From contig NZ_KE159703.1 of assembly GCF_000403435.2 (NCBI RefSeq), forward strand, positions 675,033 through 739,032: a stretch of 64,000 bases of DNA. Direction: 5' to 3'. Shown here piece by piece: positions 26,991 to 53,602 of this stretch. The notes under the pieces are model-generated. The model did no database searches and had not been told where the DNA came from. It saw nothing but the letters and a program-made list of their open reading frames with translations. Source of the stretch: Oscillibacter sp. 1-3. GTDB taxonomy: Bacteria; Bacillota; Clostridia; Oscillospirales; Oscillospiraceae. The first letter of the stretch is position 1, and every line of letters starts with the position of its first letter. The position numbers and the translations under genes were made by a program.

Positions 26991-27040
26991 GAGAACATTT
27001 GTCAAGGGGGATTTCACCCAAAAGATGAAATCCCCCCGAT
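26991..27040. repeat. Cassette end hairpin, copy A
   Basis: GGGGGATTTCA (27006-27016) pairs with TGAAATCCCCC (27025-27035) around a CCCAAAAG-type loop. The flank GAACATTTGTCAA is shared with copy B. It stands just after the cargo gene and should act as its terminator. Confidence 0.85.
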
Positions 27041-27111
27041 AAACTGGAAGGCGTATTACTCCTCGTCAAAACTCGTTTTCTTGTGGAGCAGGATCATTTT
27101 CTGTAGAGCCA

Positions 27112-28014
27112 TCAGGCCAGAATATCCAACTGTTTATAATCCGCGATTCTTTTCCCGACCTCCTCCCAGGTGAAACGGTCCCGGACAAACTCATAGTCGC
27201 TCCAGATACGCTCCAGTTCCGCCTTAATCTGGGGGACTTCGTTCAGGTCTCTTGCCCCAGTGCGGACATAGTAGTCAGGCAGCAGGGCGCAGGCCACAAT
27301 GCTGCTCTCGGCCTGGGGCAGCTCCTCCGCCCCCTGGCTCAGAGCGGCCAGCAGCCGCAGATGATTGTCGGTATAGCTGTTCAGCTCCTGTTCTACTCCA
27401 AACAGGCCGTTCAGGTCGAACAGCTGGAAGGGGGGCCTGCCTGGAACCTCAATCTCACCGCTGTAATAGACCAGCTTTCCGTTGAGTTCATAGAGTGCGT
27501 TGCACATATCCATCAAGCGTTGGTATGCCTCTTGAGAGGGTAAGGTCTGAAGGGAGCGAAACATCAAATCAACCGCCCAGTCCAGTTGGCCCAGCACCTC
27601 ACAGTCTGGTAGTCTGGACAACTGCTCTCCCAGCCGCACAAGCCGGGCAATGGACAGCAAACCCCATACCCGAACCTCGGCACCGCTCAGTTCCTTCGCC
27701 CTGGCCTCAATTTCGGCGGGAATGTCGTTGTAGAACAGTCCGTCCTTATCCTCCAGCCGCCCAATACGGTCGGAGCAATCGTCCATCAGTTTCTCCCCCA
27801 CCTTATCATAGATATTGTCATCAGCACTATAAATGGTGTCCGCCCGGTGGAGCCACAGCTGGGCTTCATGCAGGTTGCCCGCATCCATAGCGGCCACACC
27901 CAGTTCATAATAAGTTCTGGACACCCCAGCCCAGTCCTTTTTTCTCTGGAACTCAGCCAGCCGCTTCTCTGGGGCGTTATCCTCCTTTATTTTCTTTTTT
28001 CCAAATCCAAACAT
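27112..28014 (-). CDS. TPR-like protein of unknown function, cassette A cargo
   Basis: A 300-residue soluble protein starting MFGFGKKKIKEDN, with helical repeat-like stretches (YYELGVAAMDAGNLHEAQLWLHRAD, about residues 35-60) that resemble a tetratricopeptide hairpin. I do not recognise the rest. The ATG at 28014 follows AGGAGATG. It is read from the promoter in the conserved block 120 bp upstream and ends 72 bp before the conserved hairpin. A partner-binding or immunity-type role is possible; nothing proves it. Confidence 0.75.
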   Translation of the reverse strand: MFGFGKKKIKEDNAPEKRLAEFQRKKDWAGVSRTYYELGVAAMDAGNLHEAQLWLHRADTIYSADDNIYDKVGEKLMDDCSDRIGRLEDKDGLFYNDIPAEIEARAKELSGAEVRVWGLLSIARLVRLGEQLSRLPDCEVLGQLDWAVDLMFRSLQTLPSQEAYQRLMDMCNALYELNGKLVYYSGEIEVPGRPPFQLFDLNGLFGVEQELNSYTDNHLRLLAALSQGAEELPQAESSIVACALLPDYYVRTGARDLNEVPQIKAELERIWSDYEFVRDRFTWEEVGKRIADYKQLDILA

Positions 28015-28133
28015 AAAAATCATCTCCTGTTGTATTTTGCTGACACGAAACAATCATGCTATTCTTAAATTCTGTAATTTACTTTTCTTTCTATAAATTC
28101 CCAGAAAATTCCGATTTGTCGAATTAACACGGG

Positions 28134-28595
28134 CAAAGTATAACACCGGTGCGGGCGATAGTCAACCTTTGTCTTTGGACGCTGATAATAGTAGTGGCAA
28201 GCAATGCCCCGGTATATACCCGGCACAGCTTGTTGGGGGCCAATGCCCCCCCAGTGCATCGGCGCAGCTCCACCCGATGCACAAACCGCTGGTGGTGTCT
28301 GCTGGCCTGTCCATACTGGGCAGGAAAGGGACGCCCGGTGGACCGACCCTCGGAGATCGCACGACTGCCGGAGGCAGTACCACCGCCGGCCTTGGCAGGT
28401 GGTGAGTAAGTGCGCTCTCCGAGAGGGCCGGCAAGGAGAACGGAGCGCCCAGGTCATCCCCGGACGCTCCCGCTTCGATCCTCTCCTGCTGGTCGATCAC
28501 TGCCTTTCCAGCCTATGCCATTCTGCCACAAATGAACCGTCAGCCAATGTGTATTTGGATGATGAAACTACCCTTTACACAATACATCTCAGCAA
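28134..28595 (-). repeat. Conserved cassette block with outward promoter, copy A
   Basis: About 460 bp of non-coding DNA shared with 35142-35600 and 53216-53602. The outer end folds into a hairpin (28546-28592). A central block holds GGAGCG...CGCTCC (about 28440-28470). The inner end is a minus-strand promoter, TTGACT (28165-28160), 17 bp, TATACT (28142-28137). Open frames on both strands are not shared intact among copies, so I regard it as non-coding, though the minus strand of A and B shares a decayed peptide with CIGxxCxDALG. Confidence 0.8.
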
Positions 28596-29075
28596 AGAAT
28601 CGCTGACCCATGGATTCAAGCCGATGTTTGATCGATGCTCCAAACAAGTTACGCCGCCATTCGAGCCGGCAGGCTGTATCTGGCTGAAAGATATGTAATT
28701 TTCATTGCTGGGAGAACGGATTGGGATTGGGGTACGGATACTTCGCCGTATAGGACGGCCAATAAAAACACTCATTCGGTTCCCTTCTGGAGTCGGATGA
28801 GCATAAAAGAACGGATTGATTTGCCGGTCTCGCTTCGCCGCGCCGGTATCACTTTTCTTGCCGGGCGACAGAGCGCCTGCAAAAATCTGCCTCGATCCGG
28901 CATTCCGCCGGCTTGAAAACAGGCTCTAGGCCGGGCGGAATGCCCCAACTGCGGGAAAAGGCGGTTTTCAAGACAAAGCAGCGTCGCCTCGGTAGAAAAA
29001 TGCGCCGAGACGACGTTCTGCCATTTTTCAAACAGCTCCGAATCCTGAGCTTATGCCATATGGATTCTTCCTGCT
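28596..29075. other. Non-coding stretch with decayed inverted-repeat element
   Basis: I see nothing coding here. Positions about 28845-29035 contain pieces also found in the inverted-repeat element at 53002-53172 (TTTTCTTGCCGGGCG, CGGCATTCCGCC, GCCATTTTTCAAAC), scrambled and partly duplicated, so this is probably a decayed copy. Confidence 0.5.
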
Positions 29076-29378
29076 CTATCGGTTCTTTTTCGCCAGCGCA
29101 GCCAGCTCCCCAAACTTTGAGACTACATAGCCATAGCTTTTCCTTCCGTGAGGGATAAGACACGCGCTGCAGTCTTTCGTCCCATCGGGAAGCCAGGAGC
29201 AGTTTCCCCCGCAGGCTGATCCCAGGGTGTACAGGGGACAGTAACAGAACAGGCAGTTGAAATCCTCCGGCCGGTCTGTTTTGTGGCAGGGGAAAAATTC
29301 ACAGTCCTTATGCTGAAAGAAAGAGTACCGGCTCTCCTCCGGTTTCATAGTCAATCCAGTTTTCTCTTCTGCTGCCAT
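29076..29378 (-). CDS. Cysteine-rich small-domain protein
   Basis: A 100-residue protein with about ten cysteines in the pattern CEFFPCHKT...FNCLFCYCPLY...CGGNCSW...CSACLIPH, the cysteine-rich small domain (PF04071). Such proteins are often found near cobalamin genes, and a cobalamin riboswitch lies upstream on the same strand at 30745-31050. The cysteines probably bind metal. I prefer the ATG at 29378; a TTG at 29399 would overlap the stop of the preceding fragment. The function is unproven. Confidence 0.8.
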   Translation of the reverse strand: MAAEEKTGLTMKPEESRYSFFQHKDCEFFPCHKTDRPEDFNCLFCYCPLYTLGSACGGNCSWLPDGTKDCSACLIPHGRKSYGYVVSKFGELAALAKKNR

Positions 29379-29395
29379 CGTCTGTTTCCTCACTT

Positions 29396-29611
29396 TCAAA
29401 GATTCAAAGCGGCCATCTGCCGCAGAACTGCCGTCCGGCGTTCGGACCGGCTGCCCGCCGCCAGCTCATGGGTCAGATAGTCCGGCTCCAGATTCCAGAT
29501 CCCCTCGGCGCCCTGACAGCCCAGCTCCCTAAGCTCCTGCCGCAGTCCCTCCGCGCCGCCGTACTCCGCCAATACGGCAGAGGACAGAGGCAGACTGAGC
29601 GTCTGTTTCAC
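29396..29611 (-). pseudogene. Truncated TIM-barrel (sugar isomerase-like) gene
   Basis: A GTG start at 29611 with GGAGCAGG gives VKQTLSLPLSSAVLAEYGG and LGCQGAEGIW, which looks like the first strands of an AP-endonuclease/xylose-isomerase type barrel. It stops after 71 residues, far short of the usual 250 or more, and the next gene begins at once. I judge it a remnant whose 3' part is deleted. The family assignment is tentative. Confidence 0.5.
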
Positions 29612-29952
29612 GCCTGCTCCTCCCCAGGCCTTTTTCCGCACCTCCGGGTATCCGGCGTGCCGCTCCGCGCGGGAGGCCCGCAGGCCGGCGGCCTCCAATG
29701 CGCCGGGCCAGAGGATGAATTCCCGGTAAACGCAGAAAAGACTTTTTTACAGGGCAGCCGGTCCAATTCTTCCGCTTTCCGTCGTATTATATCCAGCGGT
29801 TCTTCATCGGAAAACGGCGGTACAGAGGCACTACGGTATAGGGTATGGTTATGGGAAATTCTCCCCTCCTGCATTGCCAATAGGTTGGATAAACGCTCCG
29901 GCAGTATTGCCGCTGGGCATGCTCGGCCATCCGGTCATAAAGATCCGCCAGT
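29612..29952 (-). pseudogene. Probable decayed 3' part of the repeat-protein gene
   Basis: About 340 bp with coding-like peptides scattered over two frames (TRDELADLYDRMAEHAQ and DEEPLDIIRRKAEELDRLP). These resemble the repeat units of the upstream protein but have no continuous frame. Two frameshifts would join them to the gene ending at 29953. Confidence 0.4.
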
Positions 29953-30615
29953 TCATCCCGCGTCTGCGGGCCGCCAGCGCCCATTGCGCGGAGGCAGTCC
30001 CGCCATGCGCAGCGCGGCAGACCATCGGCCAAACCGCTGGGCAATATACGCCCCGCCCAGAACCTCGCTTTGGAACGGGGGACGGTTCAGCTCTGCTGCG
30101 CAGCGGTGGACATAGGCAAGCAGCTGCTCGTCCGTATCGCCGCTGTGCTGCCGGCCCCACTCCATATCCCGGGCGATCCGCGCCCTGCCCAGGGCGGCGC
30201 CGGCTGCGGCCTCTGCCCGCCGGGCTTCCCGCAGGGTCTGCTGTCCCGCCCGGTATGCCTCCTCATGCTTGAACAAGAGCGCCTGCCGCTTAAATTCCCG
30301 CTTGTAGATTCGCCGCCTGGTCAGGGGCGGCAGCGGATGGGGCGGCTCCAGCCCGGCGGCCGCCACGGCCTTTTCCCAGCCGCCGAACCGTTTTGCGATA
30401 TACGGCCCTCCGATGATCTCCTCTGCGCAGGGCGTCACGCCGAACGGCTCCGCCGCCTGCAGGAGGCGGGCCAGCAGCTGTTCGTCCGTATCCTTCTGAT
30501 GGTCCCGGCTGAATTCGGCCTGCTGCCGTTCCAAAGCCTTGACTGTGCGCCCGATCACCTGTCTGTTGGACCACAGGCTGCTGTGAAACCGCTGTGTTTT
30601 TCTGTTTCCAGACAT
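29953..30615 (-). CDS. Protein with homing-endonuclease-associated repeats, probably frameshifted
   Basis: A 220-residue protein with two copies of a roughly 50-residue unit: DTDEQLLARLLQAAEPFG then GGPYIAKRFGGWEKAVAAAGL, and DTDEQLLAYVHRCAAELNRPP then GGAYIAQRFGRWSAALRMAGL. This fits the homing-endonuclease-associated (HNH) repeat, a DNA-binding helical unit. No nuclease motif is visible. After 29953 other frames continue with plausible pieces (TRDELADLYDRMAEHAQ near 29930 and IIRRKAEELDRLPCKKVF near 29760), so the original gene was probably longer and has frameshifts. The ATG at 30615 has AGGAGGA upstream. Confidence 0.7.
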   Translation of the reverse strand: MSGNRKTQRFHSSLWSNRQVIGRTVKALERQQAEFSRDHQKDTDEQLLARLLQAAEPFGVTPCAEEIIGGPYIAKRFGGWEKAVAAAGLEPPHPLPPLTRRRIYKREFKRQALLFKHEEAYRAGQQTLREARRAEAAAGAALGRARIARDMEWGRQHSGDTDEQLLAYVHRCAAELNRPPFQSEVLGGAYIAQRFGRWSAALRMAGLPPRNGRWRPADAG

Positions 30616-30744
30616 ATGCATTCCTCCTGTATTTGCGCTCTTTGTCCGGCGGCTGACGGCCGGGATGGCATGAGGCACCGAGGGGGGAGACGCTCCGGGC
30701 AGTCCCCTCCAACGCAAAAGGCCGCATAATGCCCCTTGGGAAAG

Positions 30745-31050
30745 AAAAACCGCACCAGGTAATTTTTACCTGGTGCGGCCGTTCTTTCCCGCGCCCGTTT
30801 CCCGTCACTCCCCCCTTGGGGGCCCCACAGGTTCGATCATCGTCGGTATTCTGGCTTGCGTATTGGGAACCGGAAAACCGGTCCTGCGCCTGCTGTCCAG
30901 CCTTCCCAGGGGTTACCCAGTGACCGGATCGCTCCACGGACAGCACACTCCTACGCTTACAGCAGCGGGCAAAGAGCCGTGGACTGGCCGCCAAAGCGGC
31001 TTCACCACGTTTCCTAATCACCGCGCCTGCCTTTCGGGCAGTCATTACGG
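30745..31050 (-). ncRNA. Cobalamin riboswitch with terminator
   Basis: On the minus strand from about 31050 the sequence shows the class hallmarks: GGTGATTAGGAA, a GTGGTGAAGCC stretch, GCCCGCTGCTGTAAGCG, GTCACTGG...CTGGGAAGGC, and the B12-box-like GCAAGCCAGAATACCGACG (about 30858-30840). An intrinsic terminator follows: CCGCACCAGGTA and its complement at 30778-30750, with a T-run at 30749-30745. This layout switches transcription off with cobalamin. The next gene, 130 nt on, is the repeat protein, an unusual target. Confidence 0.9.
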
Positions 31051-31084
31051 GTGACACGATGCGGCGTATTTGGTTGTTATGTTC

Positions 31085-31113
31085 AGTATATACGATTCGC
31101 TAAGGCAAGTCAA
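31085..31113 (-). promoter_or_regulatory. Promoter of the cobalamin riboswitch RNA
   Basis: Minus strand: TTGACT (31113-31108), exactly 17 bp, TATACT (31090-31085). Transcription would begin near 31078, just before the riboswitch aptamer. Confidence 0.75.
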
Positions 31114-31182
31114 GAGCGCCTTTTGCCGCGGAAGTGTCCAACCGCGCATATTATCATCTGCGATTTTGGTTTTGCGCCGTCA

Positions 31183-31593
31183 TCAGCGGCCCATATCGGC
31201 AATATGGATCTGAGGATTTGCTCTTTTCGCCAAAGCCAGCACCGCCTGGCTGTCCTCCGGCTTCATCACAAACACCCGCGTATTGACGCCCTTGCCGAAG
31301 TGCAGCATCACGTTGGGCGCCGCTTTTCGGGTGTCCTGATGAAGCGTCGTGATCTCAGACCAGGTCCAGCAGCTGTGAAGGGAGGAACCAAACAGGCGGT
31401 AGTGGATGTCCACACCCTCCTGGGACACGATATGCTCTTTTTGAAAGAAGCAGGCCAAAACCACGAACAGCACCACCGGTACGTAGAGCCACTGTCCGCG
31501 CGCGGCCTCCAGAAAGAGCATGCACAGGGCCAGAAGCAGGACGGACACTTTCACCCAGAGCCTGCGTTCGTGCAGAAGTCCATAGTATCGCAT
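31183..31593 (-). CDS. Small membrane protein with PH-like domain
   Basis: A 136-residue protein with two adjacent membrane helices (VKVSVLLLALCMLFLEAA and WLYVPVVLFVVLACFF, residues 14-50) and a cytosolic beta-rich domain (about 52-130, IVSQEGVDIHYRLFGSS) that looks like a bacterial PH-type fold. It begins directly after the NhaC stop, so the two are co-transcribed. The function is unknown; it may support or regulate the transporter. Confidence 0.7.
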   Translation of the reverse strand: MRYYGLLHERRLWVKVSVLLLALCMLFLEAARGQWLYVPVVLFVVLACFFQKEHIVSQEGVDIHYRLFGSSLHSCWTWSEITTLHQDTRKAAPNVMLHFGKGVNTRVFVMKPEDSQAVLALAKRANPQIHIADMGR

Positions 31594-33123
31594 TTACTTT
31601 TTTGCTTCTTTTGCCGAAGCGCCGGCTCTGATCCTGGCCAGGGCGGCTATCGCCCGCTCATGGGCGTCGTCCGGCGCGCCGGCAGGCGTGCCGCCGGTTT
31701 TCAGTCTGCCCAGCAGATTGGTGCGGGAGCCGTCGGCATAGAGGATGTTGCCGCCCCAGCTGGCTGTGATAATGGCATAGATGGGGTTGATAATATTCAT
31801 GAAGCAGAAGGGCAGATAGCCGAATGTGGAGACGCCCAGAATGCTGGAGTGATAAGCGCCGCAGGAGGACCAGGGGATCAGGGGAGACCAGAGGGTGCCG
31901 CCGTCCTCCAGCGTCCGGGAGAGCATATTCCGGCCCAGGCCCATCTCATCGTATTTTTCCTTATACATACTGCTGGGAATGATGAGCCCCAGGTACTGGT
32001 CGCACATCGTGGTAATGCAGAACATGGAGGTGAGGATCGTCACCACGATCAGCTGGAACGGCGTCCTGACCTTTTTAATCAGACCGCCCAGCAGAGACTC
32101 CACCGCGCCGATCTTCTGGAGAATGCCGCCGAAGCCCACGGCGATAATCACCAGGTTATTGGTCCAGAGCATACTGTTCATGCCGCCCCGGTTCAGCAGC
32201 GTGTCGCACAGGGCGTTGCCGGTCTCGGCGGAGTAGCCGTAGTGGGCCATTGTGATGCAGTCGGAGAAGCTGGCGCCCTGAAAGATCACGGCGAAGATAC
32301 AGCCAATCGTTGAGATCAGCAGCACGCCGGGAATGGCCGGGATTTTCAAAAGAGCCACCACGATGATGAACAGGACGGGCAGCAGCAGAATGGGGCTCAT
32401 GTACGCATAATGGTCCACGATGGCCTGGGACAGATCGTTTGCCATCTGCGGATCATAGCTGGCGCTGCCTCGAAGGGAAATAATGGTGTAAATGACAATG
32501 GCGATCACCAGACTGGGGAAGGTTGTTGTAACCATGGCCCGCACATGGTCGAAAAGACCGGTCTGGGCGGAGCCGGCAGCCAGATTGGTGGAGTCGGACA
32601 GGGGAGAGAACTTGTCGCCGCAGCAGGCGCCGGAGAGGATCATGCCGGCCACCAGTCCGGGATTCAGTCCCATGGTGTCGCCAATGGCCATGAAGGCGAT
32701 GCCAAGGGTCGCCACCACCGTCCAGGCGGAGCCCAGGGCGATGCCCACAATGGCGCACAAAATGCAGGCCAGTGGCAGGAACATCCCGGGAGTGATGCAT
32801 TTCAGGCCGTAATAGACCACGGCGGGAATGGTGCCGCACCACTCGAAAGAGCCGATCAGACAGCCCACGCAGAGGATGATAATGATGGCCTCCAGGGACT
32901 GATTCACCGCGTCCAGCGCGGCAGCGAGCATCTCTTTGTAGTTGTAACCGCACCGCCAGCCCACAATCATGGCTGCCGCACAGGCGATCAGCACCGGGAT
33001 GTGGGGGTCCTGGCCCCAGTCAAAGACGTAGTTGGAGATCATGATTGCCAGCAGCACTGCAATGGGGACCAGCGCCTCAATTTTGCCTGGAAGCCGCGTT
33101 TTTGTTCTCTGTTCTTTTTCCAT
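31594..33123 (-). CDS. nhaC: NhaC-family sodium/proton antiporter
   Basis: A 509-residue transporter with about eleven to twelve membrane helices. Conserved stretches include GLIGSFEWCGTIP-type sequence, GDKFSPLSDSTNLA and GWSPLIPWSSCGA-type sequence (here LWSPLIPWSSCGAYHSSIL), as in NhaC. It should export Na+ for protons. The C-terminus has an extra 40-residue Ala/Arg/Lys tail. A promoter lies at 33275-33303. It is carried inside the skin element, an unusual place for an antiporter. Confidence 0.93.
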   Translation of the reverse strand: MEKEQRTKTRLPGKIEALVPIAVLLAIMISNYVFDWGQDPHIPVLIACAAAMIVGWRCGYNYKEMLAAALDAVNQSLEAIIIILCVGCLIGSFEWCGTIPAVVYYGLKCITPGMFLPLACILCAIVGIALGSAWTVVATLGIAFMAIGDTMGLNPGLVAGMILSGACCGDKFSPLSDSTNLAAGSAQTGLFDHVRAMVTTTFPSLVIAIVIYTIISLRGSASYDPQMANDLSQAIVDHYAYMSPILLLPVLFIIVVALLKIPAIPGVLLISTIGCIFAVIFQGASFSDCITMAHYGYSAETGNALCDTLLNRGGMNSMLWTNNLVIIAVGFGGILQKIGAVESLLGGLIKKVRTPFQLIVVTILTSMFCITTMCDQYLGLIIPSSMYKEKYDEMGLGRNMLSRTLEDGGTLWSPLIPWSSCGAYHSSILGVSTFGYLPFCFMNIINPIYAIITASWGGNILYADGSRTNLLGRLKTGGTPAGAPDDAHERAIAALARIRAGASAKEAKK

Positions 33124-33303: not shown

Positions 33304-33440
33304 TTGATAGTTCGTAATAATTGCGGACCAACAGTTGTAAAATATCACCAAAAACGGTGGCTTGAAATTTTGACACATGGGAACCGCTATTGCCTGGCGG
33401 GCAGCTTGGTGAGCGGAAAAATGCCAGGGAATACACGCAA

Positions 33441-33490
33441 AAGAACATTTGTCAAGGGGGATTTCACCCAAAAGATGAAATCCCCCGGTA
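33441..33490. repeat. Cassette end hairpin, copy B
   Basis: GGGGGATTTCA and TGAAATCCCCC around a CCCAAAAG-type loop, with the flank AGAACATTTGTCAA. Nearly identical to copy A over 45 bases. It lies 33 bp after the cargo gene. Confidence 0.87.
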
Positions 33491-33522
33491 AATACGTGGT
33501 GGGGCGGTTAGATGCCTGTGAT

Positions 33523-35082
33523 CTATTCTACAAATAGCATATCTCTGTGATAGGAAAGGTATTCATTCATACTTTTGTTTATTTGAAGGTTAGACTTCAT
33601 CCCTTGGGATAGTCCAAGCCGCTTAATATTTTCAGCCCCAATCTGAGAAGATAAAATAATCTTGCCATATCTATCGAATGTAATGAGACCACGGTCAAAA
33701 AGTCTATCATAGGTAGCGCTAAGGAGAAGCCCGTTGTCAACACTTAAGCGCTCTTTATTAGAGCTGGCTGCCCATGGCTTAATGTGGCTTGCAACAAGCA
33801 AATCGGGATGGTCAATTCCCGTTATAATACAACGCCCATTATATTTATCAATAAGAGATTTTCTAAAGGCACCTTGACCTACTCGTGATTGAATGATGGC
33901 TGTTTTCTCGGTTTCGGGAATTTGTCTGTCATTCTCTATTGTCTCCATATAAGTACGATCGCCCGAATCTTCGGATATGGTATTAAGAAAATAGCGGTAT
34001 TGCTTAAGCGCATTTCTGTACAACAGTTTTCTGCGAGTATTTTCTGTGGCAAAATCTCTATCGTTTATGATAAGAAAGATTGCAAGATCAAGTTCAAACG
34101 GTGACATATTTTCAAGTGGTTTTTGAATTGTACCTTTTTGATGCATTTTCTTCGATATTGCGCCTACTGCATCAGAGTATGTACCAATAGAACCCTCAGA
34201 AAACCCAATATTCTGAGCCAGCCAGTCAGAAAAGGGATTGCTACTATGAGTGGTAGATAATAATGCAGATGTACGGTTAGCGGAATCTGGATTGGCTTTC
34301 TTTTCTTCATTTACCCCGGTCGAACCTCTTTTCGATGCAACGCCTAAGATACGCGCTCTCGTTTTAATAGCATTTTCTGTTCTGTTAGGCAGATATTTTT
34401 CCCGCAATTCTTTAGGTGATATTTTACCATAGTTTTTTTGCGGTATTTCATCATCTTCTTTAGTCCAGTTGGGGGTCTTTGCTGATGTGAGACCAAGCTT
34501 ATATGCTCTCCCAACGATAGCGTCTACCGTTCTGTCTGGCAGGTATATTTTCTGCAATTCTTCATTTGATATTTTGCTATAGTATGTTTGTAATATTTCA
34601 TCATCTTCTTTAGTCCAGGCGGGACTCCTTGGTGACCCAATACCAAGGAGCACTGCTCTCCCAATAATAGCCTTTATCGTTCTGTCGGGCAGGTATGTCT
34701 TTTTCAATTCCTTATTTGGTATTTTGCCATAATATTCTTGTAACTTTTTAATCTCTTCCTCGGTCCAGTCGGGACTCTTTGCTAATGTGAGGCCAAGTTC
34801 AGATGCTTTCCCAAGGATAGCATCTACTGTTCTGTCAGGCAGATATGTTTTCTGCAATTCTTCTATTGATATTTTACTATAGTATTCTTGTAACTTTTCA
34901 AGCTCTTCTTCGTTCCATTCTGGTCTCTTTGCTAATGCAATGCCAAGTTCAGATGCTTTCCATCTAATAGATTGCGATGTCCTGTTAGGTAGATATTTTC
35001 TCCGCAATTCTTTATTTGGCATCTTACCATAGTGCTCTTGCAACTTTTCAAGTTCTTCTTTCGTCCAGTCTTGGCCTTTCAA
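33523..35082 (-). CDS. HNH nuclease with five SANT-like DNA-binding repeats, cassette B cargo
   Basis: A 519-residue protein. Residues 6-255 are five repeats of exactly 50 residues, each with W(T/N)(K/E)E-x-LQ..Y.K....EL...YLP(N/D)RT...I..(K/R)A..LG, resembling Myb/SANT helix-turn-helix units. A linker follows (about 256-400). The C-terminus (about 405-500) is an HNH nuclease domain with CIITG, ASHIKPW and DNGLLLSATYDRLFDRGLI. It should bind DNA in a modular way and cut it. A defence or homing role is plausible but unproven. Codon use is AT-rich compared with neighbours. ATG at 35082. Confidence 0.88.
   Translation of the reverse strand: MKGQDWTKEELEKLQEHYGKMPNKELRRKYLPNRTSQSIRWKASELGIALAKRPEWNEEELEKLQEYYSKISIEELQKTYLPDRTVDAILGKASELGLTLAKSPDWTEEEIKKLQEYYGKIPNKELKKTYLPDRTIKAIIGRAVLLGIGSPRSPAWTKEDDEILQTYYSKISNEELQKIYLPDRTVDAIVGRAYKLGLTSAKTPNWTKEDDEIPQKNYGKISPKELREKYLPNRTENAIKTRARILGVASKRGSTGVNEEKKANPDSANRTSALLSTTHSSNPFSDWLAQNIGFSEGSIGTYSDAVGAISKKMHQKGTIQKPLENMSPFELDLAIFLIINDRDFATENTRRKLLYRNALKQYRYFLNTISEDSGDRTYMETIENDRQIPETEKTAIIQSRVGQGAFRKSLIDKYNGRCIITGIDHPDLLVASHIKPWAASSNKERLSVDNGLLLSATYDRLFDRGLITFDRYGKIILSSQIGAENIKRLGLSQGMKSNLQINKSMNEYLSYHRDMLFVE
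34318..35067 (-). repeat. Five tandem 150-bp coding repeats
   Basis: Five units of 150 bp encode the five SANT-like modules (first residues W6, W56, W106, W156, W206). The most similar neighbours share most of their protein sequence, pointing to growth by duplication. The number may vary between strains. Confidence 0.85.
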
Positions 35083-35141
35083 TGGAACCCCTCCCTTTTA
35101 TAATTTCATTATAGCCAACGCGGTTAATCAAAGTCAGGTTT

Positions 35142-35600
35142 GAAAGTATAGCATCAATATGGGCAATATTCAACCCTTGTTTTTGGACGTTGCGGTAGTG
35201 GCAAGCAATGCACCGTTATATACCCGGCGCAGCTTGTTGGTGGCCGAAGGCCCCCAAGCCCCCAGTGCATCGACGCAGCTCCGCCCGATGCAAAAGCCGC
35301 CGTTGGCGTCTGCTGGTATATACTGGAAGGGAAGGACACCCCTGGCGGAGCCGCCCCCGGAGGGCGCACGGCTGCCATCAGGCAGTACCACCATCGCGCC
35401 CTGGCAGGTGGTGGTTTAGTGCGCTCTTAGCAGAGGGCCTATAAGAACGGAGCGCCCAGGTCATCCCCGGACGCTCCCGCTTCGGTTCCCTTCTGCTGGT
35501 CGATCACCGCCCTTCCAGCCTGTGTCATTCTGCCACAAATGAGCCGCAGTCAATGTAATGTAGTGGTCTGGTGAAACCACCCTTTATACATTACATCTCA
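35142..35600 (-). repeat. Conserved cassette block with outward promoter, copy B
   Basis: Matches copy A along most of its length. The outer hairpin is TGTAATGTA (35554-35562) with TACATTACA (35587-35595). The shared middle reads GGAGCGCCCAGGTCATCCCC then GGACGCTCC. The promoter on the minus strand is TTGAAT (35173-35168), 17 bp, TATACT (35150-35145). The region from 35601 to 35697 holds only a small hairpin (GCAGTTAC and GTAACTGC, about 35660-35684), a possible terminator of the next gene. Confidence 0.82.
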
Positions 35601-36276: not shown

Positions 36277-36605
36277 ATTCTTTCTCCTTAAATTCCGATC
36301 TATTACCCTAATTATAGCACAGCCAATCTTCTGACTCAAGCTGCAATCCGTAAAATTGCCAGTGCCCAGTTCCATCAACACGAAAGGCAAAAGGGACAAG
36401 CAGATGCCGCCATATCTTTGTACGGCAAGGAAAATCAACGCGGAGCGGCGGAAAAAGATCCGTCGTTTGGGCGTTTTGACATTTTATAAACAAGGCCCAA
36501 AGTCTTGAAATACGGCATGTCCACCGAGAGAATATATTTTTGCTTTGTCTCTGCTCCGGCAGACCCGCATGAAAGCTGGCGGTTTGTTTGATTTCTCCTT
36601 CCGCT
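36277..36605. repeat. Element end region with partial inverted-repeat element
   Basis: Positions about 36405-36497 match, on the minus strand, the element at 53002-53172: GTCAAAACGCCCAAACG followed by GGATC..TCCGCC and TTGCCG, ending near the TTGTTTATAAAATG end. Only one end is present. No gene is supported in the interval. Confidence 0.6.
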
Positions 36606-39366: not shown

Positions 39367-39395
39367 CGTGTCACCGTTTTTTGGAATTCGGAATC

Positions 39396-39474
39396 AGGCC
39401 GTGTTTGAAAAATGGCAAAACGCCCGCGTGGCGGATTTTCCGCTGTGTATTCCGCCATTTATCAAACAAGGCCT
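39396..39474. repeat. Short inverted-repeat element (79 bp)
   Basis: AGGCCGTGTTTGAAAAATGG (39396-39415) faces its near-complement at 39455-39474, which differs at two positions. The whole could fold on itself. The ends match those of the 171-bp element at 53002-53172. It lies between pgeF and the lipoprotein gene and resembles a MITE or a repetitive extragenic palindrome. Confidence 0.75.
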
Positions 39475-47081: not shown

Positions 47082-47108
47082 CAGGAAGAGATCGGAGGTG
47101 AACGAGAT

Positions 47109-47321: not shown

Positions 47322-47336
47322 AAGGAAGCGAATGAT

Positions 47337-48149
47337 ATGGAAGAATTTCTGATGAGCGAGTTTTATGAAAAAATGGAAGGCGTCAATTTTGAGGCATATG
47401 GCATCCTTGATTCCGATAACAGGATTCATACGTTGGGCACGGACTCGAAGATTATCGGCCGGATTTTTGAGATGTTTACACAGCCCATATTGTCAGAAAT
47501 CGCACAAGCCCATGGAATGCTGCTGAAAACGCCTGTGTCTCAGACTGTTTATCCGGACTTTATCATGATGCGGGATGAAGCCTCCAGAGAGAAAATAGCG
47601 ATTGACGTTAAGACTACATATGTCGGCGGTAATCAGTCGACCATTAAATTTACGCTTGGATCATACGGCTCATATATGCGAAATAATACAAAGAATATTG
47701 AATATCTCTACACAGACTACGTAAAACACTACGTGATCGGCTTTGTGTATAGGAGGAACGGAGCGGCGCAGGAAAGCGCGGTCTATGATTACAGCCGGAG
47801 AGACCAGGTTGTATTTCCGTACCGTGATGTGCGGTATTTTATACAGGAGAAGTACAGGATCGCGGGAGATAAGCCCGGATCGGGGAATACGGAAAATATC
47901 GGGTCTTTCCCCACGAGGTGTTTTTCTGATCTCAGGGAGGGGAGAGGTCCTTTCGGTGAATTGGGCGTGGATGCGTTTGATTTGTACTGGAAATACTATC
48001 CCAAATACCGCAGCCCGGAAAAGGCGTATACGACTTTGGATGGCTTCCTGGAGTGGGTTCTGCAGCAGAACGGGCTGTCTCTCCTGCACCCATACGACCA
48101 CCAGGGACTGCTGGAGCGGATTGCGGACTATCAGAAGAGACATAAATAG
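47337..48149 (+). CDS. EcoRV-like type II restriction endonuclease
   Basis: A 270-residue nuclease. With the ATG at 47337 the catalytic residues fall at Asp74 (YPDF), Asp90 and Lys92 (IAIDVKTTY), the same numbers as in R.EcoRV, which supports both the start and the family. Other shared stretches are FTLGSYGSYMRNNTKNIEY and DKPGSGNTENIGS. R.EcoRV cuts GATATC to blunt ends, so the same site is expected here, as a homodimer. It stands between the controller and the convergent methyltransferase. Confidence 0.95.
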   Translation: MEEFLMSEFYEKMEGVNFEAYGILDSDNRIHTLGTDSKIIGRIFEMFTQPILSEIAQAHGMLLKTPVSQTVYPDFIMMRDEASREKIAIDVKTTYVGGNQSTIKFTLGSYGSYMRNNTKNIEYLYTDYVKHYVIGFVYRRNGAAQESAVYDYSRRDQVVFPYRDVRYFIQEKYRIAGDKPGSGNTENIGSFPTRCFSDLREGRGPFGELGVDAFDLYWKYYPKYRSPEKAYTTLDGFLEWVLQQNGLSLLHPYDHQGLLERIADYQKRHK

Positions 48150-48168
48150 AGAAGCAGATTTTTATGTC

Positions 48169-49008
48169 TTACCGCTTGATGGCCAGTACCTCTGTCATCG
48201 GATGGCGGTTGGATTCTTTCGCTCCGAAGTGATAATAATGGCTGTGTTCATACCATGTGAAATCGGACCAGTATTCAAACAGGTGTCCGTTTTTCCGAAA
48301 TTGGTTTTCCTTCCACATGGACAGGCACACGTTGGCCGGTGTCTGATGGGCATACCCGGCGAGAGACGCCGCGTCTTCTTCCGACCATTCGCCGACATAG
48401 GAGGTATCTCTTCCGATATATGGAGGGTCCAGATATATATAGTCGTTTGCCGCCGCCCCGGCAAATGCGTTTTGCCAGGGACAGCAGATAAACTCCCAAT
48501 CTCTTCCGCTCATTGCGGCGGAGACGCGGGAGACTTGATTGCAGATTTTTGTAATATATGACTTGGAAAACCGGTGCGGCTTTTGGCAGAAGGGTACATT
48601 AAATTCGCCTTTTTGATTAAATCGGATCATGCCGTTGAAGTCGGAGCGGTTTAGGAACAAAAAGTACAGGGGATCGTAGTTTTGGTTGAAGGCGCTGCGC
48701 ATTTCAAGGTAGTACTCTCCGCCCCGCTGTTCCAATATGCTGCCGTGGTATTCGAGGAAGTCTCTCACGGTGCTGCTGTTGATGATGCCGTTTTGGATGC
48801 CCTGATAGAAGGAGATGATATGCCGGTTTTTGTCGCATAGGAGCGCCCGTGCCGGCGCGATATTGAAGGCGACGGCTCCCGTTCCCACGAAAGGCTCAAT
48901 CCACAGGCCGTTCTCATCCCGTTGTACATTTTCTATGATAAAGGGCACCAATTTGGTTTTTATTCCCTGGCACTTGATGGGCGGTGTGATGATTTTCTCT
49001 CCTGCCAT
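48169..49008 (-). CDS. Adenine DNA methyltransferase, EcoRV-type
   Basis: A 279-residue N6-adenine methyltransferase (Dam/D12 class). It has the SAM-binding motif EPFVGTGAVAFN near residue 40 and the catalytic DPPY motif (YLDPPYIGR) near residue 195. It also carries LNRSDFNGMIRFNQKGEFN, shared with Dam-like enzymes. It would protect the host at the site of the neighbouring nuclease. It converges with the nuclease gene, leaving 19 bp. Confidence 0.93.
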   Translation of the reverse strand: MAGEKIITPPIKCQGIKTKLVPFIIENVQRDENGLWIEPFVGTGAVAFNIAPARALLCDKNRHIISFYQGIQNGIINSSTVRDFLEYHGSILEQRGGEYYLEMRSAFNQNYDPLYFLFLNRSDFNGMIRFNQKGEFNVPFCQKPHRFSKSYITKICNQVSRVSAAMSGRDWEFICCPWQNAFAGAAANDYIYLDPPYIGRDTSYVGEWSEEDAASLAGYAHQTPANVCLSMWKENQFRKNGHLFEYWSDFTWYEHSHYYHFGAKESNRHPMTEVLAIKR

Positions 49009-49065
49009 TTGCTACCTCCGAATTGGATAAGTTCTTTGCGCGCGCAAAACCTCAGGCAGGACTGC

Positions 49066-50439
49066 CTAAATCTTGGAGGAATCGCGTTTTGATAACAAGA
49101 CGACTGCCTCCACATGCCGCGTCCCCGGGAACATGTCCACCGCGCAGGCACGGTCCGCCCGGTAGCCGAAGCCGGCGAAGATTTTCACATCCCGCCCCAG
49201 GGTGCCGGGATCGCAGGAGACGTACACCACCCGCTGTGGTCCCATGCCGGCGATGGAGGAGATGACCTCCGGGCTGAGGCCCTTCCGGGGCGGGTCCACG
49301 GTGACGACGTCCGGCCGCAGACCCTCTGTCTCCAGCCGGGCGGCCACAGAGGCGGCGTCTCCGCAGAAGAACTCCACATTTTTGACGCCGTTTCGGACGG
49401 CGTTTTCCCGGGCGTCCGCCACGGCGGGGGGAACAATCTCCGCGCCGATGGCCCGACCGGCCTGCCGGGCCAGACACAGCGTGATGGTGCCCGTGCCGCA
49501 GTACAGGTCCAGCACCGTCTCCCTGCCCGTCAGGCCGGCGAATTCCAGGGCCTTGCCGTAAAGTACTTCCGCCTGAGCCCGGTTCACCTGGTAAAAGGAG
49601 GGGACGGACAGCTTGAACTCCAGCCCGCAGAGGGTGTCCATCAAAAAGTCCCGGCCCCAGATGACGCGGTATTTGTCCCCCAGGATCACATTGCCGGGGC
49701 GGGTGTTGGTGTTCAGCACCACGCCCACGGTCTTGGGGGCAGCGGCCTGGATGAGGGCTGCCAGCTCCGGCTCCCGGGGGAGCTGCTTTCCGTTGGCTAT
49801 CACGCAGCAGAGGCTCTCGCCTGCGGCGTTGACCCGGACATAGATGTGGCGCATCAGCCCCTTGCCGGTGGACTCGTCGTAGGCGGAGATCTTGTAGCGA
49901 TGCATCCAGTCCCCCACGGCTCTGGCAGTGCGGTCGGAGACCTCCGGCTGAATGAGGCAGCGGTCAATAGGCACCACCTGGTGGCTGCGGGAGCGGTAGA
50001 AGCCGATGGAGCCGTCGGCCCCCACGGGGTACTGGCTCTTGTTGCGGTAGCGGGCGGGCTCCCTCGCCCCCAGAATCTCCTCCACCTGGATGTCCGCACC
50101 CCCAAGACGGGTTAAGGCATCCTGCACCCGCTGGCGTTTGGCTCGGAGCTCCTCCGGGTAGCTCAGGTGCTGAAAATCGCAGCCGCCGCACCTGCCGAAA
50201 TAGGGGCACTCCGGCTTGACCCGCTCCGGGGAGGGGGCGCGGATCTTTACGATCTCTCCGGCGCAGCTGGATTTCATCACTTTTGTAATCCGCAGGTCCA
50301 TGGTCTCCCCCCGGACGGCCTGGGGGACGAAGACCACGGCGCCGTTCAGGCGGACGATGCCCAGGCCCTCGCTGGAGTAGGCCTCCACGGTGCCGGTGTA
50401 GAGCTTGCCCTTTTGCAGGGGCTGGCGCAGGTTTTCCAT
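49066..50439 (-). CDS. rlmD: 23S rRNA (uracil-1939-C5) methyltransferase RlmD-like
   Basis: A 457-residue enzyme. An N-terminal TRAM domain (about 1-60) is followed by an iron-sulfur site (CPYFGRCGGCDFQHL, about residues 75-85), then the SAM domain with LDLYCGTGTITLCLA. The catalytic Cys lies in YVSCDPGTLGRDV. It methylates a uracil in 23S rRNA or tRNA (RlmD, RlmCD or TrmA-like specificity cannot be told apart). Full length. Confidence 0.92.
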   Translation of the reverse strand: MENLRQPLQKGKLYTGTVEAYSSEGLGIVRLNGAVVFVPQAVRGETMDLRITKVMKSSCAGEIVKIRAPSPERVKPECPYFGRCGGCDFQHLSYPEELRAKRQRVQDALTRLGGADIQVEEILGAREPARYRNKSQYPVGADGSIGFYRSRSHQVVPIDRCLIQPEVSDRTARAVGDWMHRYKISAYDESTGKGLMRHIYVRVNAAGESLCCVIANGKQLPREPELAALIQAAAPKTVGVVLNTNTRPGNVILGDKYRVIWGRDFLMDTLCGLEFKLSVPSFYQVNRAQAEVLYGKALEFAGLTGRETVLDLYCGTGTITLCLARQAGRAIGAEIVPPAVADARENAVRNGVKNVEFFCGDAASVAARLETEGLRPDVVTVDPPRKGLSPEVISSIAGMGPQRVVYVSCDPGTLGRDVKIFAGFGYRADRACAVDMFPGTRHVEAVVLLSKRDSSKI

Positions 50440-50547
50440 AGGCGGGTCCTCTCTTGATAGAATGGCGTGCGGGAAAGGGCGTTCACTGCCGCTTTTCTGC
50501 GGCGGTGCGGGAAAGCGGAAGGCTTTGGCCTTCCGCTTTTTTGAGGC

Positions 50548-52155
50548 TTACGCCTCCCACTTCTCCAGCAGCAGCCGCAGCTGGTCGGCGAATTTCGCAA
50601 GGGACTTGTTGTCCCGTCCCTTGCTGCGCTTGATGGACTCGTTGAGCATGGCGCCCACGGAGACCAGCCGCTCGTAGGCGGCGGAGGCCCGGGCTCCGCT
50701 GGGAGTCACCTTGGAGACCTTCCGCTCCGGCAGGTAGCCGGGGGCCAGCTGGGTGTTGGCCGCCAGATCGTAGACCTCGGTGTACTGGGGCGCGTGGGCC
50801 GGAATCCCCATGCCCTCCAGCGTCTTGGCGAAGAAGGGGGCCACCTCCCGGTCGCCGTGGACCACGAAGACATGCTGGGGCTTGGGCTCCTGGAAGCCGC
50901 TGATCCACTTGAGCAGGTGGTCCCGGTCGGCGTGGGAGCTGAGGCCTGTGAAGTTCTCCAGGTGAGCCTGGACGGAGATCTCCTCGCCAAAGAGCTTCAC
51001 GCTCTTGGCCCCCTCCAGCAGCTGGCGGCCCAGGGTGCCCTCCCCCTGGTAGCCCACGAAGAGGATGGTGCACTCCGGCCGCCAGAGGTTGTGCTTGAGG
51101 TGGTGGCGGATGCGGCCGGCGTCGCACATGCCGGAGGCGGAGATGATGACCTTGGGGGTGGGGTCCTCGTTGAGGGCCTTGGACTCCTCGCTGGTCTCCG
51201 TCAGCTGGAGGTTGGGGAAGCGGAACATGTTGGTGCCCTTGCGGGTCAGCCACACGGCGTCCAGGTCCATGTAGCCCCGGAGGTCGCCGTCAAAGATGGT
51301 GGTGGCCTTCTTGGCCAGGGGGGAGTCGATGTAGACCGGGAAGTCCGGGCAGGAGGAGACCTTGTGCTGCTCCTTGATCTCCCGGATGAAGTACAGCAGC
51401 TCCTGGGTGCGGCCCACGGCGAAGGAGGGAATGATGACGTTGCCGCCCCGGGCCATGGTCTTGTCGATGATCCGGGCCAGGTTGTCTGTATAGCCCCAGT
51501 GCTCCGGGTGGTTCCGGTCGCCGTAGGTGGACTCCATCACCACGTAGTCCGCGCCGGTGATCTGCACCGGGTCCCGGATGATGGGCTGGTTGATGTTGCC
51601 GATGTCGCCGGAGAAGACGATGCTCTTCTTCACGCCGTTTTCCTCCAGGTCCATGGCGATGAAGGCGGAGCCCAGCAGGTGCCCCGCGTCGGTGAACTCC
51701 AGGTCCACGCCGTCGCACAGGTGGACGAACTGGCCGTACTCGCAGGTGTCCAGGAACTCCGGCACCCGCTCCGCGTCCGCCACGGTGTAGAGGGGCTCCG
51801 TCCGGGGGGCGCCGGAGCGCTCGCCCTTGCGGTTTTTCCACTCGGCGTCCTGTTCCTGGATGTGGGCGGAGTCCAGCAGCATGATCTCCAGCAGCTGGGC
51901 GGTGAGGCGGGTGGTGAGGATGCGGCCCTGAAAGCCCTGCTTGATGAGCATGGGAATGCGGCCGGAGTGGTCAATGTGGGCGTGGGTCACCAGCACATAG
52001 TCGATGGTGTTGGGGGCGAAGGGGAACTCGCCGTTGGACACCTCGTCCCGGCCCTGCTGCAGTCCGCAGTCGATGAGGATGCGCTTGCCGTTGATCTCCA
52101 GGCAGTGACAACTGCCGGTCACGCATTGGTCCGCGCCGAAAAAGCTGAGCTTCAT
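50548..52155 (-). CDS. Beta-CASP metallo-hydrolase with RNA-specificity domain
   Basis: A 535-residue protein. The metallo-beta-lactamase domain has THAHIDHSGR near residue 60, the beta-CASP insert follows (ISASGMCDAGRIRHHLKHNL), and the C-terminus carries the RMMBL motif (SSHADRDHLLKWISG and VHGD). It resembles RNA-processing nucleases of the YSH1/RNase J-related class, more like the archaeal/eukaryotic CPSF form than typical RNase J. The substrate is unknown but is probably RNA. Confidence 0.92.
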   Translation of the reverse strand: MKLSFFGADQCVTGSCHCLEINGKRILIDCGLQQGRDEVSNGEFPFAPNTIDYVLVTHAHIDHSGRIPMLIKQGFQGRILTTRLTAQLLEIMLLDSAHIQEQDAEWKNRKGERSGAPRTEPLYTVADAERVPEFLDTCEYGQFVHLCDGVDLEFTDAGHLLGSAFIAMDLEENGVKKSIVFSGDIGNINQPIIRDPVQITGADYVVMESTYGDRNHPEHWGYTDNLARIIDKTMARGGNVIIPSFAVGRTQELLYFIREIKEQHKVSSCPDFPVYIDSPLAKKATTIFDGDLRGYMDLDAVWLTRKGTNMFRFPNLQLTETSEESKALNEDPTPKVIISASGMCDAGRIRHHLKHNLWRPECTILFVGYQGEGTLGRQLLEGAKSVKLFGEEISVQAHLENFTGLSSHADRDHLLKWISGFQEPKPQHVFVVHGDREVAPFFAKTLEGMGIPAHAPQYTEVYDLAANTQLAPGYLPERKVSKVTPSGARASAAYERLVSVGAMLNESIKRSKGRDNKSLAKFADQLRLLLEKWEA

Positions 52156-52392
52156 GGGGAAAACCTCCTTGCAGATTTCTTGTGAGATAGAGACACAGCT
52201 GTTTTATATCAGTATATCACAAGTGGGGGCCGAGAACAAGGGTGGCATTCGGTAAAAGTGTCGAAAATTTGGAGGAGGCATTTTGCCGGTTGGAGCGGAA
52301 AAATGTGCTTCCCTTTTGGCGGGACATGTGATATACTGCATACGGTATACAAAATTCAAGAAAATGGACGATGGAAAGGGGAGGAACCTGAT

Positions 52393-52578
52393 ATGAGCAA
52401 AACTGCAAGCATGGTCATGAAGATCATCGGCGCCAGCCTGGCCTTCGCGGCGGTGGTCTGCCTGCTGATCGGCGGCTGGCACGACCTGTCCGTGGGCTGC
52501 TGCGGCATGAAGAAGCGGCTGAGCAAGCGCTTCCGCTCCGAGTACGACGACTACGCCGACGAGGAACTGTTCAGCTGA
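52393..52578 (+). CDS. Small single-pass membrane protein
   Basis: A 61-residue protein with one hydrophobic helix (MKIIGASLAFAAVVCLLIGGW), then LSVGCCGMKKRLSKRF and an acidic end DDYADEELFS. The function is unknown. The ATG at 52393 follows GGGGAGGAA. The C-terminal half is charged, consistent with a cytosolic tail. It is ended by a terminator at 52594. Confidence 0.7.
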   Translation: MSKTASMVMKIIGASLAFAAVVCLLIGGWHDLSVGCCGMKKRLSKRFRSEYDDYADEELFS

Positions 52579-52593
52579 CGGCTGGAGAATGGA

Positions 52594-52628
52594 GAGGCCC
52601 CGGTCCTTTTGGGACCGGGGCCTCTTTT
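52594..52628 (+). terminator. Intrinsic terminator
   Basis: GAGGCCCCGGTCC (52594-52606) pairs with GGACCGGGGCCTC (52612-52624), followed by TTTT. Confidence 0.93.
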
Positions 52629-52711
52629 CCGCATGGGAGCCCTGCCGGATTTGGGCCGCGGTGCGCAGGCGTTCAGGATGCGTTTATACTTCCCGGTGCT
52701 TCTCAGGAGAG

Positions 52712-52762
52712 CATTTATCAAGGGGGATTTCACCCAAAAGATGAAATCCCCCTTGATAAATG
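52712..52762. repeat. Cassette end hairpin, copy C
   Basis: A perfect 21-bp inverted repeat (52712-52732 and 52742-52762) with a nine-base loop. It contains GGGGGATTTCA and TGAAATCCCCC as in copies A and B, but here the outer arms are also paired. Confidence 0.9.
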
Positions 52763-52781
52763 TATTTGATTGCAAATAGAG

Positions 52782-52982
52782 TTAGCGTTGTTTTCTAAAT
52801 GTAATAACAAATGCCCCTTTTATCTGAGTTGACGTTGCCATGTAATCATATGTTACAAGTTCCCACCCATCAGCAGCTCTTTCGTTAATTAACTGGTCCA
52901 ATGCGGCTATGTCGTTTGCATTTGCCTTATCGGAAATCCATTTTACGCCTACCGTTAAAATTTCTGTTTTATAAATGTACAT
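52782..52982 (-). CDS. DUF4177-like small protein, cassette C cargo
   Basis: A 66-residue protein: MYIYKTEILTVGVKWISD, then LDQLINERAADGWELVTYDY and KGAFVITFRKQR, the DUF4177-like fold in which a helix ends in DGWELV. The function is unknown. The ATG at 52982 follows AGGGGGAA. The reading frame is open up to 53165 but that part is the inverted-repeat insertion. It should be read from the promoter at 53223-53251, although the insertion lies between. Confidence 0.75.
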   Translation of the reverse strand: MYIYKTEILTVGVKWISDKANANDIAALDQLINERAADGWELVTYDYMATSTQIKGAFVITFRKQR

Positions 52983-53001
52983 TATTTGGTTCCCCCTGTT
53001 G

Positions 53002-53172
53002 TTAGGCCATGTTTGAAAAAAGTCAAAACGCCCAAACGGTGGATCATTATCCGCCACTCTGCGTTGAATTTTCTTGCCGGGCGTCAGCCCGCCTGCGAAA
53101 ATTTGCCTTGATTGGCGAAAATATCTCTTCTCTCGCCGTTGGGCATTCCGCCATTTTTCAAACAAGGCCTAA
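53002..53172. repeat. 171-bp inverted-repeat element
   Basis: TTAGGCCATGTTTGAAAAA at 53002-53020 faces its near-complement at 53154-53172. The interior includes GTCAAAACGCCCAAACG and TTGCCGGGCGTCAGCCCGCC. It sits between the promoter and gene of cassette C. Related pieces are at 39396-39474, 36405-36497 and 28845-29035. No coding capacity; likely a MITE. Confidence 0.8.
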
Positions 53173-53215
53173 TTCTATATATTTTTTTACTGGAAACACT
53201 GACTTGCTAAAATCA

Positions 53216-53602
53216 CGGCCAAAGTATACCACGAGCGCAAATAGCAGTCAATTGCAATTTGACGGTGCTGATAGTAGAGGCAAGCAATGCGCCGATGCAC
53301 AAGCCGCGGTGGCGTCTGATGGCCTGTCCGTGCTGGGCGGGGGAAGGAGCGCGTCCGGCGGAGCCGCCCCCGGAGGGCGCACGATAGCCACAGGCCCATA
53401 CCACCACCGGCCGATGGCGGTGGTGAGTAAATGCGCACTTAGCAGAGGGTCGGCAAAGTGAATGGAGTGCCTGGGTCATCCCCGGACGCTCCTCCTGGTC
53501 GGTCACCGCTTTTCCAGTCTGTGTCATTTTGCCACAAATGAACCATCAGCCATGTAATGCAGCAGGTGGTGAAACCACCCTTTAATACATGACATCGCAG
53601 CA
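53216..53602 (-). repeat. Conserved cassette block with outward promoter, copy C
   Basis: Same order as A and B with a deletion of about 90 bp. The outer hairpin includes GGTGGT (53565-53570) with ACCACC (53574-53579). The promoter on the minus strand is TTGACT (53251-53246), 17 bp, TATACT (53228-53223). The spacer differs from those of A and B while both hexamers are kept. Confidence 0.8.

Follow-up and report, generated by a model that had tools for sequence, protein, structure and literature searches.

Single-gene cassettes of gut Clostridia have ends like those of TnpV-encoding mobilizable elements and are probably moved in trans by a serine recombinase

In a 64,000-nucleotide stretch of the genome of Oscillibacter sp. 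1-3 (contig NZ_KE159703.1, positions 675,033 to 739,032; we will call this stretch the window), we identified three units on the minus strand with a common architecture: a non-coding block, a promoter, one gene, and a hairpin at the right end. We will call these units and their relatives in other genomes cassettes. By comparison of sequences, the cassettes have defined ends, insert beside a TG dinucleotide, have moved recently, and carry diverse cargo. Also, both of their ends resemble those of integrative and mobilizable elements (IMEs) that encode TnpV and a large serine recombinase (LSR). The cassettes encode neither an integrase nor a relaxase. We propose that a TnpX-type recombinase, acting in trans, probably moves these single-gene units, and that borrowed relaxases perhaps transfer them between cells.

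Counting the TG at each junction, the units lie at 26987-28591 (unit 1), 33438-35600 (unit 2), and 52704-53599 (unit 3, upstream of a gene that the initial annotation named rpoB). Their blocks are 390-480 bp long, and the repeated pieces of the block are 60-91% identical among the three units. With a slash for the junction, the typical left end is TG/AGATGTAATGTATAAAGGGTGGTTTCACC and the typical right end is GGGGGATTTCATCTTTTGGGTGAAATCCCCCTTGACAAATGTTCTCTTG/; by eye, the two are imperfect inverted repeats of one another. (Unit 1 has an extra T before its right-hand TG, relative to the other copies.) The hairpins that form the right att-like ends are at 26991-27036, 33441-33486, and 52705-52763, and the arms of the last are fully paired. 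Copies 2 and 3 of the hairpin are 98% and 94% identical to copy 1 over 48 nt, and compared to shuffled sequences, the hairpins of units 1, 2, and 3 fold with z scores of -3.2, -3.6, and -8.3. Promoter-like sites are found in unit 1 (TTGACT-17-TATACT, 28165-28137) and in unit 2 (TTGAAT-17-TATACT, 35173-35145), from a scan that found 16 sites where 6.9 were expected. The promoter of unit 3 (TTGACT/TATACT at 53251/53223) was read by eye, outside the scan.

The sequence, the repeats, and the folding confirm the three units and the promoters that the initial annotation had described. The annotation had also placed a terminator after each gene and had put two of the units inside a skin element, and neither claim is supported. 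The right-hand hairpin has no run of T's, and in units 1 and 2 it is absent from the listed terminator-like sites; those that are listed there are within the block and precede the promoter (28470-28442 and 35477-35449). As for the skin element, a serine recombinase gene beside a phage-like stretch is at 20794-22461; units 1 and 2 lie at least 4.5 kb beyond it and have ferredoxin-, AhpC-, and antiporter-type genes as neighbors.

The evidence for movement comes from other genomes. Four cassettes (at loci L004, L016, L030, and L049) are 99.6-99.9% identical from end to end, are 919-921 bp long, and share a gene of 120 amino acids. The records that contain them have four different names, among them Anaerotruncus sp. 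G3 and Pseudoflavonifractor sp. 60, and their 200-bp flanks show no likeness on either side. Other near-identical pairs with unlike flanks are L024/L033 (99.7% identity over 1524 bp), L002/L053 (98.2%), and L015/L074 (89.5%). Near-identical units at unrelated sites indicate recent movement of the unit, which agrees with the initial annotation's view that the ends define a mobile unit.

To describe the insertion sites, we removed the unit and one TG and joined the flanks. We inspected the joined frames of 12 of the 28 units with both ends placed. Four of these loci (L024, L033, L086, and L049) give a plausible frame, and the remaining 8 gave nothing nameable. The join is spanned by a Resolvase domain in L024 and L033 and by a 4Fe-4S domain in L086, which is from the window's own genome; in L049, a helix-turn-helix domain ends at the join. 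The junctions and joined frames of L024 and L033 fit a 2-bp TG core without a longer duplication. Of the 89 right ends, ten are antisense within the first part of an LSR gene, after its SxSI codons.

At the same SxSI codons, we found IMEs whose left ends are related to those of the cassettes (L127, L128, L129, L136, L137, and L138). A tnpV gene follows each of these left ends (for L129, this is a match to Pfam's TnpV). The right ends of the L127 and L129 IMEs were not found up to ~48 kb on. We traced two such IMEs from end to end, one of 25.7 kb (G125:C1:405975-431641) and one of 33.9 kb (G216:C7:42847-76715). Each of them interrupts an LSR gene, and the two halves of that gene can be joined in frame around a single CA. 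Both encode tnpV, an LSR (matched over 675 residues in G216), and MobA/MobL. Their left ends are AGAGTTACTATGTAGAGGGTGGTTTC or TGATGTAATTTATAGAGGAGGGTTTCACC, and their right ends are CCCTTGACAAATCTCGTCT. In a third IME, L132, both ends are present and the LSR is matched over only 278 of 680 residues.

The left end of the cassettes and the tnpV-side ends of the IMEs have TA.AGG...GGTTTC in common. The right end of the cassettes and the far ends of the IMEs have CCCTTGACAAAT in common, with 12 of 12 positions matching in units 1 and 2 and 11 of 12 in unit 3 (CCCTTGATAAAT). (We dropped a first reading of the polarity, in which the direction of the core equated the hairpin end with the tnpV end: the sequence pairs the left end with the tnpV end and the hairpin with the far end.) According to PMC3158075, TnpX of Tn4451 has a 2-bp target, and a relative from C. 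difficile, Tn6104, has a 2-bp repeat and a homologue of TnpV. The likeness of the ends to those of TnpV/LSR IMEs suggests both a mechanism and a kinship for the cassettes, and we infer that a TnpX-type LSR moves them.

TnpV-type elements are also nested in the N-terminal codons (SxSIxNQ) of other LSR genes, at L127-L129, L136-L138, L114, and L122. Judging from these sites, the nested elements break the recombinase genes of other elements.

The block itself is a mosaic of mobile-element parts. We aligned 29 blocks and divided them into part A (columns 1-86), part B (columns ~100-256), and part C (columns ~262-432), which is followed by the promoter. Part A, the att-like end, includes a conserved GACTG.GGYTCATTTGTGGC motif. 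In unit 1, part A is at 28506-28591, contains the conserved motif as GGTTCATTTGTGGC, and is similar to the left ends of IMEs. A motif like the one in the left end, GACTG(A/G)CGGCTCATTTGTGG, is found ~15-16 bp before the LSR gene in L127 (14096-14116), L128, L129 (13830-13850), L135 (12452-12479), and L136. The motif's presence in both places might reflect a site for a shared regulator.

Part B is related to DNA near MobA/MobL genes. In five of the six loci with such a gene (L127, L128, L129, L135, and L138), a match to part B lies 150-250 bp upstream of it. (For L129, the Pfam match to MobA_MobL has E = 1.9e-91.) On the opposite strand, the core of part B in these five loci is TAAGTGCGCCCTT. 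This exactly matches the last 13 fixed places of the consensus for MOBQ-type origins of transfer (oriT), which is NWACCNNTAAGTGCGCCCTYNN in PMC3832669. Among the cassette blocks, 22 of 29 match the TAAGTGCGCCCTY core at 11-12 of the 13 places (19 at 12, with L053 on the opposite strand, and three at 11), as compared to 20 of 1160 shuffled blocks with 11 or more. Because the 29 blocks are related, these matches are not independent. In the window, the putative MOBQ oriT cores are at 28401-28420 in unit 1 (TAAGTGCGCTCTC on the plus strand, 12 of 13), at 35413-35430 in unit 2 (degraded), and at 53421-53440 in unit 3 (11 of 13).

Part C contains hairpins. In 8 of the 12 loci that match part C (L095, L108, L109, L112, L113, L119, L120, and L121), it lies 5-360 bp after a match to a VirD2-like (PF03432-type) relaxase, of which only the last third was matched at some loci. 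Among the other four, L093, L104, and L105 resemble cassettes or their remains, and L123 fits neither description. Its place and its hairpins suggest that part C is a second, putative oriT; it is at 28191-28305 in unit 1 and at 35195-35316 in unit 2. For the second putative nic sequence, none of the literature matches listed was about oriT by its title. The att-like end, the two relaxase-associated stretches within the block, and the likeness of the ends to TnpV/LSR elements were all missed by the initial annotation. In L110, L115, and L117, parts A and B (the att-like end and the MOBQ-like oriT) surround a small membrane-protein-like gene, which is apparently read in the opposite orientation. 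This seems to be a sister layout.

In the proposed layout, a cassette starts with a left att half-site, continues with two stretches (one with the MOBQ-type nic sequence that precedes MobA/MobL genes, the other of the kind that directly follows genes for VirD2-like relaxases), then has a promoter and a single cargo gene, and closes with a right att half-site within a hairpin. In the mechanism that we envision, a TnpX-type LSR acting in trans would excise the cassette as a circle, and the circle would be inserted at degenerate TG sites, of which the start of other LSR genes would be a favored one. A relaxase supplied in trans could nick the borrowed putative oriT, so that a resident conjugation machine would carry the circle into a new cell. 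The cassettes would be satellites of IMEs that keep only what they need in cis (the att ends, oriT, and the promoter) and that take the recombinase, the relaxase, and the pore from others.

A different view of the transfer step, which otherwise overlaps with ours, is that cassettes pass between cells by carriage only (within integrative and conjugative elements, in phage, or by uptake) and that the oriT-like stretches are inert relics of IMEs. Consistent with this, seven of the 29 blocks match the core at 10 or fewer of the 13 places: six lack part B by deletion, and L041 has 10. Together with unit 2, which has 11 of 13, these blocks imply that a unit can be present without an intact oriT. Also, the 10 right ends inside LSR genes are likely to be in parts of other mobile elements. 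On the other hand, 19 of 29 blocks match the MOBQ consensus core at 12 of 13 places, and two different relaxase-associated stretches have been retained side by side. We consider carriage alone to be a real but rather unlikely alternative.

The cargo bears on another alternative. The block-bearing units enclose 34 protein clusters, a few of which are short frames that might be spurious. We compared one protein from each cluster to Pfam (E of 0.01), and we found no match to a recombinase or a relaxase. In the window, the cargo of unit 1 (27112-28014, 300 amino acids from the ATG; scanned from a longer start at 28053) has no match, while the initial annotation had described it as TPR-like. The other two do have matches: unit 2 encodes a restriction-enzyme-like protein of 519 amino acids with Myb-like repeats and HNH_2 (33523-35082), and unit 3 encodes a DUF4177 protein of 66 amino acids (52782-52982; the longer frame 52782-53165 was scanned) that clusters with the cargos of L021 and L041. 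Besides HNH_2/Myb and DUF4177 (L021/unit 3 and L086), the matches include VanZ, C39 peptidase, glyoxalase, GNAT acetyltransferase (L013 and L039), SUKH, SnoaL, DUF3658, DUF4303, DUF6199, S66 peptidase, FMN reductase, PNPOx, NUDIX, and Mrr. Thirteen cargos have no match (unit 1, L004, L008, L011, L012, L017, L046, L057, L060, L065, L073, L093, and L101), and those of L067, L087, and L055 have matches below the cut-off only. The one in L067 (L067:983-1516) is a weak match to Cass2, a family that is named for integron-associated proteins. Among the ten cargos that we scanned with PADLOC, those of unit 2 and L072 were identified as restriction enzymes. The initial annotation's claim that a shared promoter precedes different captured genes is borne out.

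Cassettes could instead be decayed IMEs, or cis-mobilizable elements (CIMEs), in which deletions have spared both att ends and which move only in cis, with a larger element. PMC5704250 defines CIMEs by the loss of integration and transfer genes and the retention of attL and attR. The homology of the block's parts to parts of IMEs, and the deletions in some blocks, would fit. But the uniform layout across 34 cargo clusters, and the presence of near-identical small units at unrelated sites, in records with different names, argue for repeated movement of the small unit itself, so we view decay as improbable. Least plausible of all are elements akin to miniature inverted-repeat transposable elements, mobilized by a transposase of the DDE or HUH type with specificity for inverted, hairpin-forming ends: the cassettes do have imperfect inverted repeats with hairpins at their ends, but the L024 and L033 junctions fit a TG core with no longer duplication, and IMEs with LSR genes are bounded by similar ends. 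(We also considered readings as an integron cassette, a group II intron, IS91/IS605, or a bridge-RNA element, and gave them up once the ends had turned up on TnpV/LSR elements.)

We scanned genome contigs with the hairpin pattern alone and obtained 81 stretches. Most are from records with names of Oscillospiraceae and their relatives, and some are from Lachnospiraceae; a profile gave 83 distinct right ends. A block piece lies upstream on the same strand at 43 of the 83, and at 26 of the 36 for which at least 3 kb of upstream DNA exists. Among all of the loci collected, a block piece is present at 54 of 96 and a true left end at 30 (L098 and L133 are the same place, which is counted twice among the 96). 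Misplaced block pieces, which are within 4.5 kb but on the wrong side or the wrong strand, are found at 4 of 96 and have weak scores. The block profile was derived from such units themselves. The pairing of block and hairpin is strong but not universal, and as the initial annotation expected, pairs recur in a fixed order around different genes. In the window's own genome, the hairpin pattern occurs at six places if up to 3 mismatches are allowed, and the block has eight matches, with some being pieces of one copy. Only 3 plasmid records match, all from Campylobacter coli, and the one that we examined is a recombinase-TnpV element. In L186 (NZ_CP017026.1 1-14332), a Campylobacter coli plasmid, genes for a recombinase, TnpV, a MobQ relaxase, and TnpW are annotated, and a stretch resembling the left end of a cassette lies near an annotated aminoglycoside phosphotransferase gene. 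Phage records had no match, and viral contigs had no match to two exact patterns.

Several observations weigh against our proposal that TnpX-type LSRs move the cassettes as independent units, besides the incomplete oriT cores mentioned above. First, some concern the insertion sites. TG is present at both ends of 28 of the 30 units with a true left end, but the search pattern itself required TG. The joined frame of L049 is about equal if one base is added (116 versus 118 codons). In L016 and L053, the left flank does not carry on the LSR gene of the right flank, perhaps because of later rearrangement. For unit 3 alone, we looked for a clean empty site, and 61 genomes of the genus yielded none; a relative whose flanks are 93% identical to those of unit 3 has a different gene at that site. 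Second, the likeness between the ends of cassettes and IMEs is partial, and the core is CA in both of the fully traced IMEs instead of TG. (L130 is an IME with a TG core, of which one end was seen.) In the G125 IME, there is a frame change in the LSR gene, CTATTAAC is present on both sides of L132, which a 2-bp core does not explain, and L208 has MobA/MobL without a match to part B. In the window's genome, we searched for a helper using the LSR and TnpV families (48 matches to PF07508 and 6 to TnpV) and both end patterns, and among the pieces around these matches, we did not find an IME with closely matching ends. Third, the block's distribution is patchy: 46 of 300 genomes of the family match, many by short pieces only, and none of the five other genomes listed from the same genus do. 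The initial annotation had stated that finding block and hairpin separately would count against it, and this is partly the case, as no block could be detected at 40 of the 83 right ends (for 20 of the 83, less than 300 bp of upstream sequence is available).

If our proposal is correct, then Oscillospiraceae and Lachnospiraceae have single genes that travel as packages, ready to be expressed. Such packages would be overlooked when mobile elements are annotated by their genes, since no mobility gene is inside. The ends and block would provide a searchable signature for small mobile genes, such as lone restriction enzymes and acetyltransferases. Dependence would be stacked, with cassettes relying on IMEs and IMEs relying on conjugative elements, and the question arises of how a gene enters the scaffold. 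More speculatively, the cassettes could be an array-free second gene-cassette system, besides integrons, in gut Clostridia. Its standard scaffold would combine a promoter with serine-recombinase att ends and with one oriT for each of two relaxase families, and such a system might capture arbitrary single genes and spread them between genera by means of a borrowed recombinase, relaxase, and conjugation pore. We found no description of this cassette family in the literature by title or abstract opening; most subscription journals were outside of that search, so novelty is unproven.

The window also contains a second family of short repeats, with TTAGGCC..TGTTTGAAAAATGGC ends. One member is a 171-bp repeat with inverted ends (53002-53172; repeats D10, D17, I1, and I7) that is inserted between the promoter and the gene of unit 3, and others are at 28836-29046, 36423-36500, and 39391-39439. 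Directly before a solitary hairpin end at G000:C5:799595, there is a sequence like this family. An open reading frame on the minus strand between units 1 and 2 (29953-30717) has homing-endonuclease-associated HNH repeats (PF18780). In searches with Rfam, units 1 and 2 matched no family at E of 1, and none of the window's units did so at gathering scores. Outside the units, a match to the cobalamin riboswitch (30825-31076, minus strand) has 31.4 bits, just below the gathering score of 31.5.

Among known systems, the IMEs of the Tn4451/Tn4453 and Tn6104 type, with a TnpX LSR and TnpV, are similar to the cassettes in their ends (the comparison is to TnpV/LSR IMEs and not to Tn4451 itself), their 2-bp core, and their insertion within genes. 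Both ends of the cassettes match those of LSR-encoding elements, with a partial likeness (the GGTTTC region on the left and CCCTTGACAAAT on the right), as would be expected of elements mobilized by an LSR. Unlike these IMEs, the cassettes lack a recombinase, TnpV, and a relaxase, are just ~0.7-2.2 kb, have one cargo gene behind a common promoter, and use a TG core. With no match to a recombinase in the proteins scanned from the 34 cargo clusters, they do not qualify as IMEs. The iOriT elements, or mobilizable genomic islands with oriT mimicry, also have an oriT-like stretch and no relaxase (according to PMC11389934). In the cassettes, a sequence match and synteny with relaxase genes point to putative oriTs, and no relaxase is among the cargo. 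Unlike the iOriT elements, the cassettes also lack an integrase, and they carry a single gene and have two relaxase-associated stretches. The cassettes fit the definition of CIMEs cited above, as they have att ends without integration and transfer genes; their oriT-like stretch, uniform layout, and evident independent movement go beyond it. Finally, integron gene cassettes also have one cargo gene per unit and similar kinds of cargo (acetyltransferases, SnoaL, glyoxalase, and restriction enzymes), whereas the cassettes described here have their own promoter, are scattered as single copies, and have their kin among serine-recombinase elements.

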